Program-made: the position numbers and the translations under genes
IMG/VR virus record: IMGVR_UViG_3300023119_000124
Location: 1-23,811 of that record
DNA from: a virus
Length of the DNA stretch: 23,811 nt
Direction: 5' to 3' (one strand)
The notes under the pieces: model-generated
Databases searched by the model: none
Told to the model about the DNA's origin: nothing
Seen by the model: only the letters and a program-made list of their open reading frames with translations
In this document: piece by piece, positions 14,740-17,751 of the stretch
How positions within the stretch are numbered: the stretch's first letter is position 1
Layout of the letters: every line of letters starts with the position of its first letter

Positions 14740-15245
14740 GCGCTAATCTCCATCAAAGTCATACTTGAATAATAAGCTCCTTGATAAGGGTATGAACCAC
14801 CTATTACACCGCCTCTATTTACTGCTAAAGGATACGAAGCACTATAATATGATCCTTGTAATTTATAAGTAATTGCGCTAGTCGTTGCTGGCTCATCTAA
14901 AATAGTAGTAGAAGCACTCATTCCATGTGTAGTTCCATCATAGCCAGATATAAAACCTCCTGTCCAACCGCTTCCGTAATCACTAATACCTATCGGTGTT
15001 GAATCACGAACAACACGAAATCCGTTACTATAAGTACCTGCTCTACCTAAATTAACTAAAATAAGTATTTTGCTACTTGATGATACTGGAGTAATAGATT
15101 GTGAAAAACCTGTAATATCTATATAAGTATTTGTGGAACTAGTATGATAAAATGTATCTGTGTAGTTAAGAGATACAACTTGTAATACTCTATTGTTAGT
15201 AACACCAGCAGTGTTAGCTATGTTATCAACTCTTAGTGTACTCAT
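14736..15245 (-). CDS. Small tail fibre tip protein, 169 aa (VLQVV type, copy 1)
   Basis: Starts MSTLRVDNIANTAGVTNNRV, with the MSTLxVDxI leader of this locus. Then VLQVVSLNYTDTFYH, ITPVSSSSKILILVNLGRAG, FRVVRDSTPIGISDYG, LDEPATTSAITYKLQ, LAVNRGGV and the end SSMTLMEISA. It is paralogous over its whole body to the 203-residue protein at 12643-13254. The pattern SITPxSSxSKILVxVxxxG and PATTSxxTYKLQ is common in phage fibre tips. ATGA overlaps join it to the 66-residue gene before and the XkdW-like gene after. Expected to be a beta-rich trimer on the tail; receptor unknown. Confidence 0.8.
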   Translation of the reverse strand: MSTLRVDNIANTAGVTNNRVLQVVSLNYTDTFYHTSSTNTYIDITGFSQSITPVSSSSKILILVNLGRAGTYSNGFRVVRDSTPIGISDYGSGWTGGFISGYDGTTHGMSASTTILDEPATTSAITYKLQGSYYSASYPLAVNRGGVIGGSYPYQGAYYSSMTLMEISA

Positions 15246-15442: not shown

Positions 15443-16660
15443 TTATAATACCACCCATCTTGATCCGCTAGGAACTGTTACCGATACACCGCTGTTTACT
15501 GTTAATGGTCCTGTACTCATAGCATTAGTGTTTGTTGTTAGTGTGTAGCTAGTCGTAATAGTCTGACCATTCTCATAAAATACTTGGTCTCCTCCACCAC
15601 CTGTAGCTCCACCACCGCCTCCAATAGCTCCCCACGCAGAACCATCGTAGCCCTCAAAAGAACTATCAGTTGTATTAAATCTTAAATAACCAGCAGCAGG
15701 TGAACCATCTCTCTGTGCTGTAGTACCGCTAGGAATCTCCGCAGAGCCTGTAGCAGACGTTTCAACAACGTATGTACCTAGATCACTAATCTGTGATTCT
15801 GTGATGCTGAGAGCAGCCTGATGCTGTGTGACAGAGCTTTGTGTGATGTTTGCATCTGGTACGTTAGCCCATGTAACAGCAGCAGTAAGATCGTTAGTTT
15901 CTGTAAATGATTGTAATGCTGTATCTGCTAATGCACCCTGAGCAGCAGTAGCATAGTCTGCTGAACTAAATGCTTTAACTTGAGCAAGGTTAGTTACCTC
16001 ACTATCCATCAATGCACCAGCAGCAGTAACATTAGCTGTGTCTGTTACATCAGCACCTGTCTCGATACCTGCTAGTTTAGTCTCTTCAGCAGTTGTGTAT
16101 GATGCTGTAGTTGCAGCTAAGACAGCAGAGTATGCTTGTACGTCAGTACCAATTTCTAAACCAAGATTAGTTCTTGATGTACTAGCACTTGCTACGTCAG
16201 ATAGGTTGTTAGCTGCTTGTAAACCACCACTACCTGTAGTAATAGTTTGCCAAAGAGTTCCATTCCAAACGTAGATAATATCGTCATTAGTATCGTAATA
16301 CATTGCTCCTTCAGCTAAAGCATCACCGTCATTATCAACGGCAGGAGCAGATGACTTAGCACCTAAGTAACGATCATCAAAAGAATCTAAAGCTAATTCT
16401 GCAGCAGCTTGTGCTGTCTCAGCATTAGTCTCAGCTAACTCAGCAGCAGTCTGTGCTGTTTCAGCAGCAGATTGAGCAGCCTGTGCAGCTACCTTAGCAG
16501 CATTTGCATTAGATGCTTCATTAGCAGCAGAAGTGGCAGAAGAAGCAGCAGCCGATGCAGACGCTTCAGCTTCAGCAGCTTTAGTTGAAGCTACACTAGC
16601 CTCATTAGCTGCATCTGTTGTAGCATCTCCTGAACCACCTGCGCCTCTCCATATAGCCAT
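15443..16660 (-). CDS. Main tail fibre shaft protein, 405 aa
   Basis: The ATG at 16660 has AAGGAAG six bases upstream, starting immediately after the stop of the pqqA-like gene. Residues 1-10 contain AIWRGAGGSG, which is a common fibre opening. Residues 12-95 are an Ala/Glu/Ser-rich alpha-helical stalk (AASSATSAANEASNANAAKV and similar) likely forming a trimeric coiled coil. Residues about 97-150 have the YYDTNDDIIYVWNGTLWQTI tail-spike motif. The middle is Ala/Thr-rich shaft with EETKLAGIETGADVT, a well-known fibre repeat. SPAAGYLRFNTTDSSFEGYD comes next, a Gly-rich break and the closing domain ending VPSGSRWVVL. It is the first gene of the fibre locus. It probably carries the fibre to which tip proteins downstream attach; attachment is inference. 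Confidence 0.88.
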   Translation of the reverse strand: MAIWRGAGGSGDATTDAANEASVASTKAAEAEASASAAASSATSAANEASNANAAKVAAQAAQSAAETAQTAAELAETNAETAQAAAELALDSFDDRYLGAKSSAPAVDNDGDALAEGAMYYDTNDDIIYVWNGTLWQTITTGSGGLQAANNLSDVASASTSRTNLGLEIGTDVQAYSAVLAATTASYTTAEETKLAGIETGADVTDTANVTAAGALMDSEVTNLAQVKAFSSADYATAAQGALADTALQSFTETNDLTAAVTWANVPDANITQSSVTQHQAALSITESQISDLGTYVVETSATGSAEIPSGTTAQRDGSPAAGYLRFNTTDSSFEGYDGSAWGAIGGGGGATGGGGDQVFYENGQTITTSYTLTTNTNAMSTGPLTVNSGVSVTVPSGSRWVVL

Positions 16661-16669
16661 GTTACTTCC

Positions 16670-16741
16670 TTACTTATTAGCGATATACATTGTTACTTCA
16701 AAACCAAAACGTAACTCTGTGTATTCAGGTTTAGACCACAT
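16670..16741 (-). CDS. pqqA: PqqA-like coenzyme PQQ precursor peptide, 23 aa
   Basis: A 24-codon gene hidden between the capsid and fibre genes. The product starts MWSKP and continues [16 protein letters not shown]. It agrees in length and register with cellular PqqA (23 residues in Klebsiella): Trp2, Lys4, Pro5, Leu10-Arg11, Gly13, Glu15-Val16-Thr17 and Tyr19, with Asn22 and a basic final residue. In the known pathway PqqE, a radical SAM enzyme helped by PqqD, joins the Glu and Tyr side chains of PqqA. Proteases and PqqB/PqqC then finish pyrroloquinoline quinone, the cofactor of periplasmic alcohol, methanol and glucose dehydrogenases. Both cross-linked residues are present. No other pqq gene is in the window, so host enzymes would be needed. 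The ribosome binding site is exceptionally strong. A host-made cofactor boost during infection is the simplest idea; a decoy or regulatory peptide is the alternative. Identity confident; function inferred. Confidence 0.9.
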
Positions 16742-16743
16742 CA

Positions 16744-16754
16744 GATCACCTCCT
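16744..16754 (-). promoter_or_regulatory. Near-perfect Shine-Dalgarno sequence of the pqqA-like gene
   Basis: On the minus strand this reads AGGAGGTGATC, 11 contiguous bases complementary to the 3' tail of 16S rRNA (GATCACCTCCT). GGAGG ends seven bases before the ATG at 16741. Other genes here, including the capsid gene (AAGGAAA), have much weaker sites. It decides the start of this tiny gene and predicts heavy translation. Confidence 0.88.
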
Positions 16755-16756
16755 AT

Positions 16757-16799: not shown

Positions 16800-16815
16800 C
16801 CAGCTATTAAGCTGG
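16800..16815. other. Small inverted repeat around the capsid gene stop codon
   Basis: CCAGCT, four-base spacer ATTA, AGCTGG: a perfect 6-bp inverted repeat whose loop overlaps the capsid gene stop (16807-16809). It lies 10 bases ahead of the larger hairpin. It could be a minor RNA hairpin at the end of the capsid message; chance is possible. Confidence 0.4.
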
Positions 16816-17751
16816 AACTGCTAGAGCAACAGCACTGCTGTCACGCAACTCAGCTACACCGTAAAGCATATCTGACGTGAACAACGTACCGAGGTACTCT
16901 TGCTTGTACTGAGTCTGTGAACGTACACCCATTTGTTCAGCAAGAACGAAAGCATCCTTGTGAGCCATGAGACAGATACGGTCAGTTGCAGAGTTACCTG
17001 CAGCAGTATCAGCATTAGTTGTAACGTAGACCTTAACACCATAGATGTCACCAATCTGACCGTTACGGATTGTGTTTCCACCGCCAACTTCACCAACGAA
17101 TGCTTGCTCAGTGAACCGTGCAAGACCCATTAATGTGTTACGAGTTGTAGGAGGAACAATCAAGAAACGATCTGACATTGGAACGTCATTGTCATCAAGT
17201 CTCTGGATTGAACGACGGATACCAGCATCACCAAGTGCAGCAGCATTTGAAGATGAAGAGTTGTAAACCGTAGCACCAGTAGAACCGATGAATGCGTTAG
17301 TTGATGTAGCAGCAGTAGCATAGTCAGATGTACCGACAACACCACCATTAACGCCACGACCAAGCTGAATAAGGTCTGTATCAACCTGAGTAGCCAAAGC
17401 ATAACCAGCATCGTCCGTGTAGAAACGACGTAGTGAGCTAAGAGCCTGTGTCTCTACGATATCCTCGATCAAACGTGAATACTCGTAGTGCTTGTTGATA
17501 AGAACCTGCTGCTCTGACTCAGTTGCAGCAATAAGCGTTACCTGAGTAGAAGCTGCCTTCGCAGATGCAGAACCACGAGTAGGCTTCGGAATGTGAAGCG
17601 TATCGCCCTTCTTACCTTTGAAAGACATTTTAGAAAACAAGTTTGCAGCAACAAGATTAGCCTTATATGCTGCGATGATTTCGTCGGACCAAATCTCTGG
17701 GATAAATTTATCCGCAGTAGTCTTGGTCACATGGTTAGTACCTAGTGCCAT
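16807..17751 (-). CDS. Major capsid protein (HK97-like fold)
   Basis: 314 residues beginning MALGTNHVTKTTADKFIPEI, then WSDEIIAAYKANLVAANLFS. This opening is typical of coat proteins of marine podoviruses. GDTLHIPKPTRGSASAKAAS, the helix VLINKHYEYSRLIEDIVETQ, then RFLIVPPTTRNTLMGLARFT and IGDIYGVKVYVTTNAD follow the usual order of N-arm, P-domain strand, spine helix and A-domain. The end (MLYGVAELRDSSAVALAVPA) is also conserved. It would form the icosahedral head with the scaffold upstream. AAGGAAA precedes the ATG. The codon use looks higher in G+C than that of the internal and polyvalent proteins, as is common for an abundant capsid gene. A terminator-like hairpin follows. Confidence 0.9.
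   Translation of the reverse strand: MALGTNHVTKTTADKFIPEIWSDEIIAAYKANLVAANLFSKMSFKGKKGDTLHIPKPTRGSASAKAASTQVTLIAATESEQQVLINKHYEYSRLIEDIVETQALSSLRRFYTDDAGYALATQVDTDLIQLGRGVNGGVVGTSDYATAATSTNAFIGSTGATVYNSSSSNAAALGDAGIRRSIQRLDDNDVPMSDRFLIVPPTTRNTLMGLARFTEQAFVGEVGGGNTIRNGQIGDIYGVKVYVTTNADTAAGNSATDRICLMAHKDAFVLAEQMGVRSQTQYKQEYLGTLFTSDMLYGVAELRDSSAVALAVPA

Follow-up and report, generated by a model that had tools for sequence, protein, structure and literature searches.

A solitary phage pqqA gene preceded by an 11-base Shine-Dalgarno match that varies among relatives

In this study, we analysed a marine phage sequence from IMG/VR, 23,811 bases long (the window), that carries a pqqA-like gene among phage structural genes. 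Along the minus strand, the portal gene is followed by small genes and a scaffold-like gene, then by the gene for the major capsid protein, a terminator-like hairpin, the sequence AGGAGGTGATC, a 23-codon open reading frame (ORF) whose ATG lies at 16741-16739 (-), and a tail-fibre-like gene (Table 1). The Shine-Dalgarno (SD) sequence of the tail-fibre-like gene, TAAGGA, overlaps the pqqA stop, and its start lies 9 nt past that stop, a spacing kept in the nine phages compared. No tRNA was found in the window, and neither pqqB-E nor methanol dehydrogenase was present among the window genes scanned. The strand opposite to the structural genes carries the C-terminal portion of an adenosylcobalamin-dependent ribonucleotide reductase (3-581, +), truncated at the contig end. 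Two small structural ORFs in succession, at 15245 and 15442 (-), have WVIL or WVVL as their last residues, and the ATG that follows lies at the stop; the sequence at these ends, GGGTGATCTTATG, has GGTGATCTNATG in common with the pqqA leader.

Table 1. Coordinates of the features at and around pqqA in the window
Feature	Position	Strand	Basis
Tail-fibre-like gene, downstream of pqqA	15443-16660	-	PHROG tail fibre matches
pqqA, 23 codons	16670-16741, stop codon included	-	PF08042, TIGR02107, pN/pS 0.14-0.16
Predicted hairpin in which early pqqA codons pair with the SD and AUG	16705-16755	-	Fold; opening cost ~7.7 kcal/mol
Extended Shine-Dalgarno sequence AGGAGGTGATC	16744-16754	-	11 contiguous bases complementary to 16S 3' tail GAUCACCUCCU; single exact occurrence
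Intrinsic-terminator-like hairpin CTCCCCAGGCTCACAAGGCTTGGGGAG, then CTTTTAA	16763-16789	-	Terminator scan and fold; located between the capsid and pqqA genes
Major capsid protein gene, upstream of pqqA	16807-17751	-	PF19821 E 7.5e-10; phrog_267 major head protein E 2.4e-49

PqqA is the peptide from which bacteria make the cofactor PQQ. An earlier note on this DNA had called the short ORF PqqA-like, and the family models bear this out: it matches Pfam PF08042 (E 2.9e-11, 43.5 bits against a curated cut-off of 21.1) and NCBIfam TIGR02107 (E 9.9e-13, 47.6 bits against a cut-off of 20), while PHROGs gave no match for the peptide. The E-x-x-x-Y cross-link motif is present as Glu-15 and Tyr-19, and both residues occur in 119 of the 119 viral pqqA copies listed, which were collected by degenerate DNA patterns that required Glu-15 but not its cross-link partner Tyr-19. 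Altogether Trp-2, Lys-4, Pro-5, Arg-11, Gly-13, Glu-15, Thr-17 and Tyr-19 are invariant in these listed copies, an invariance forced by the search pattern for most of the eight residues, Tyr-19 excepted. Among 80 distinct viral pqqA sequences, compared as 60 pairs of nearest neighbours, pN/pS is 0.14; within the lineage of the window's gene it is 0.16. To judge from its sequence, then, the ORF is a real and intact PqqA gene, and these codon comparisons place it under purifying selection, at a pN/pS of about 0.15. The earlier note had argued from the initiation site against decay of the gene; the gene is indeed intact and selected, because of the codon evidence and not because of the SD. As a gene of host metabolism with phage genes on both sides, and under purifying selection, pqqA is a candidate auxiliary metabolic gene, which would be expressed and of benefit to the phage during infection.

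The record has a single copy of AGGAGGTGATC, where base composition predicts 0.007 by chance over the window and ~2e-5 at the distance of an SD from a start. Its GGAGG is separated from the ATG by seven bases (TGATCTG), just as the earlier note had described, and 11 contiguous complementary bases at this spacing before a start codon make it an SD sequence; that note's term "full complement" is a slight overstatement, since the tail complement, TAAGGAGGTGATCC, has 13-14 nt and the match takes in 11 of them in an unbroken run. The 16S 3' tail GAUCACCUCCU is near-universal; we found it in one of eight pqqA-bearing genomes searched, the exact pattern being missing in the other seven, which are perhaps assemblies without a 16S gene. 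Pairing was computed against the tail GAUCACCUCCUUA, from which that of the host may differ, and comparisons of capsid and portal gave no host (best cultured relatives only ~25-35% identical). Scored on a deliberately generous scheme, the pqqA start pairs at -20.5 kcal/mol and ranks first among the 36 starts of the window, a fragment without a completeness estimate, so that the ranking holds within the window and not for a whole genome. The next starts, at -14.3 (that at GGGTGATCTTATG) and -13.7 kcal/mol, both pair through sequence inside an overlapping upstream gene, the best of the others pair at about -9.4 kcal/mol, and the capsid gene, with the weak SD AAGGAAATAAAAA, reaches only -5.6 kcal/mol. 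The claim that this is the strongest initiation signal in the window, above that of the capsid gene, therefore stands, and none of the other starts scored there equals it.

RNA structure does not displace this ranking. Occlusion by the upstream hairpin, which the earlier note had named as a possible objection, is ruled out by the fold, in which that hairpin is separate and leaves the SD uncovered; instead, the early pqqA codons are predicted to pair with the SD and the AUG. With the cost of unfolding charged, pqqA still comes first, at -12.9 against -10.7. When the codons were replaced by synonymous ones at random, a structure at least as strong arose in 5.3% of trials; because this null reaches only 0.053, the hairpin is unproven as a functional element, and we do not accept it as a designed riboregulator.

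In close relatives, pqqA likewise follows this hairpin at the same location, but its leaders differ, and these sister phages form a natural experiment in which one gene is preceded by leaders from -6 to -20 kcal/mol. The leader ATAGGAGGTGATCTG is found in the window, L025, L114, L212 and L214; ATAGGAGGTGGTCTG in L103 and L210; ATAGGAGGTAGTCTG in L036 and L213; ATAAGGAAACACT in L005, L067, L080 and L111; TTAGGAGAACTCA in L066, L104 and L049; and TTAGGAGAAGAAACAA in L028. In the four phages with ATAAGGAAACACT, the peptide is identical to that of the window and the SD, AAGGAAACACT, pairs at -6.2 kcal/mol, and in two of them, L005 and L067, another start outranks that of pqqA. The pqqA coding DNA of L103 is the same as that of L005, with leaders at -19.9 and -6.2, respectively, and the variants GGTGATC, GGTGGTC and GGTAGTC coexist. 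At 81-89% capsid identity, pqqA is not directly behind the capsid gene in L131, L134 and L137, and is located further on in L133 and L135. From this optional presence and these differing leaders, it follows that pqqA is optional cargo and that its leader is replaced more quickly than the gene itself. Judged by the leaders compared, the 11-base SD is labile, a changeable local trait and one among several interchangeable leaders. Two pattern matches, a gene other than pqqA in L211, which has the same leader, and a short ORF in L209, are probably due to chance. Another viral pqqA, at ~687 (+) of L055, has the leader GAGAGGAGGTGGTC, also at -20.5 kcal/mol, an extended SD that was apparently gained separately.

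Among the matches listed, viral pqqA starts have a median pairing of -8.7, and 697 other viral genes, each taken at its best start, one of -6.1 (p 6e-11); for cellular pqqA starts the median is -8.7, versus -5.6 for other cellular genes (p 1.5e-27). These p-values overstate independence given the shared ancestry in both samples; starts other than those of pqqA and capsid were called mechanically. At least eight complementary bases are found, again among the matches listed, in 14 of 107 unique cellular pqqA leaders (for example AGGAGGTGATCACT at locus L320) against 0 of 682 other cellular genes, and in 3 of 67 viral pqqA leaders against 2 of 697 other viral genes, where common descent inflates the count of long leaders, many of the cellular ones being GAGGTGATTATC-like Methylophaga copies. 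Since pqqA starts are stronger than those of other genes in both viruses and bacteria, strong initiation is a tendency of the family, and to that extent, as a group tendency, the interpretation put forward in the earlier note is partly supported. Its further step, that the site implies a need for many PqqA copies, is not supported: because the same gene is preceded by an ordinary, weak SD in sister phages, the long match is no proof that huge amounts of PqqA are needed. Capsid starts in the window's phage family are weaker than viral pqqA starts (median -5.6, minimum -9.2; p 1e-6), and yet far more capsid protein than PqqA is surely produced, so that the output of protein does not follow the order of pairing strength. 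The 6-nt AGGAGG gives top expression in E. coli, where lower temperature favours shorter SDs (PMC2176067), and genome-wide translation efficiency peaks at intermediate pairing (PMC5303271); long SDs are thus not the most efficient there. SD length alone is a poor guide to expression need.

None of pqqB, C, D and E lies near any viral pqqA copy examined, within the stretch of sequence covered, while the same probe was positive in 45 cellular loci among the matches listed. The phage would therefore have to rely on host enzymes. In nine bacterial genomes, mostly of Methylophaga and chosen because they matched, pqqA alone is amplified to 2-9 copies, and Methylophilaceae have 3-12 pqqA copies with the other pqq genes single (PMC4109929). 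Extra bacterial copies may be in tandem or clustered, each with its own leader (L253, L255, L301, L309, L263, L294). Solitary pqqA is also widespread, mostly unannotated phage cargo: cultured phages of methylotrophic Methylophilales, from different lineages, carry it (Venkman, MEP301, P19250A, MEP401/402 and Melnitz; L122, L123, L124, L125, L127). In Melnitz, the ORF is overlapped by a hypothetical protein on the opposite strand, and in several of the cultured phages the N-terminal Lys-Pro and Tyr-7 positions are altered (MWTSPKATEM, MWTTPAATEM) with GFEVTMY retained. Phage pqqA was reported as an auxiliary metabolic gene in Lake Baikal in 2020 (PMC7678222), and a reservoir study lists it among viral genes (PMC13188868); the Melnitz paper refers to PQQ only as a medium component (PMC9004378). 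We found no report of leader variation or SD enrichment at pqqA in the literature searched, which covered few subscription papers.

The explanation that we favour, and hold to be probable, is that the phage carries a solitary pqqA as cargo that supplies a consumed precursor of PQQ to the PqqB-E enzymes of its host, with the long SD as an interchangeable leader. The gene sits among the structural genes of a tailed phage, inserted between the capsid terminator and the tail-fibre-like gene. During infection, phage mRNA would be translated into the 23-residue peptide, whose Glu-15 and Tyr-19 would be cross-linked by host PqqD/PqqE before the remaining host Pqq enzymes complete PQQ. One PqqA is consumed per PQQ, since the peptide itself is cross-linked and then finished to PQQ. 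With the additional PQQ, quinoprotein dehydrogenases (in methylotrophs, methanol dehydrogenase) would stay active once expression of host pqqA falls. A strong SD would raise the rate at which ribosomes start on an ORF that is very short and whose transcript has to cross a terminator, and the 11-base extension would be one of several interchangeable leaders rather than a requirement. By analogy, an added phage copy fits the pattern of PQQ-dependent hosts that amplify pqqA alone. Two observations count against this explanation: the long SD is not conserved among phages that share pqqA, and part of it pairs with the coding sequence in the predicted fold.

A more ambitious reading, which we regard as tentative, is that strong and extended SDs have arisen repeatedly as an adaptation of supernumerary pqqA copies, on methylotroph chromosomes and independently in several phage lineages, as a consumed precursor would need very frequent initiation; phages would then flood the host PQQ pathway with its limiting precursor. 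Possible to a similar degree is that the strong SD offsets low mRNA levels, pqqA lying just past the capsid terminator with no consensus promoter between. A GC-rich terminator-like hairpin 3' of the capsid gene recurs in most relatives (L129-L208), down to ~70% capsid identity and with or without pqqA, its sequence drifting and its position kept, and a scan of the region found no minus-strand promoter-like site; however, phage-type promoters would escape that scan, and sister phages combine the same terminator with a weak SD. That the 11-base match is a neutral product of recombination or drift, with no effect on expression, would account for leader turnover at constant coding sequence, but strong leaders are enriched at pqqA in phages as well as in bacteria, which makes this account unlikely. 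We consider it improbable that the site is a selected optimum serving to make very many PqqA copies, more than of other phage proteins; the first rank by pairing, kept after structure cost, and the presence of the 11-base leader in several contigs of the lineage speak for it, and the weak leaders of sisters with the identical peptide or coding DNA, the weak capsid starts and the E. coli data cited above speak against it. Least credible is that pqqA with its SD serves mainly to load ribosomes onto the tail-fibre gene by termination-reinitiation, as the overlapping downstream SD and the conserved 9-nt spacing might suggest, since the next gene has an ordinary SD in relatives without pqqA, selection conserves the peptide itself, and pqqA adjoins unrelated genes in other phages.

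The proposed supply of a PQQ precursor by solitary phage cargo has counterparts in known systems; if PqqA supply limits PQQ in infection, leader strength should matter. Like the window, the Lake Baikal methylotroph phages (VP_266; PMC7678222) have a virus-borne gene for the PQQ precursor, for which a boost of PQQ for methanol dehydrogenase was proposed; unlike the window, they are from freshwater, and they have a viral methanol dehydrogenase, of which the scan of the window's genes found none; the leader of pqqA is not a topic in the available part of that article. Cultured Methylophilales phages share the solitary PqqA ORF, at unrelated genomic positions and unannotated or labelled hypothetical, and precede it with ordinary SDs (-5 to -7) or, in Melnitz, with one at -11.9, in contrast to the -20.5 of the window. 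The supernumerary pqqA copies of Methylophaga and Methylophilaceae encode the same peptide family and are dispersed, and some have extended leaders with up to 11 complementary bases, but they are chromosomal, in hosts that also encode pqqB-E. Extended SDs of bacterial mRNAs likewise pair past GGAGG into the GTGATC of the 16S tail complement; unlike these, the extended SD of the window precedes a 23-codon phage gene whose coding sequence is predicted to sequester it in part.
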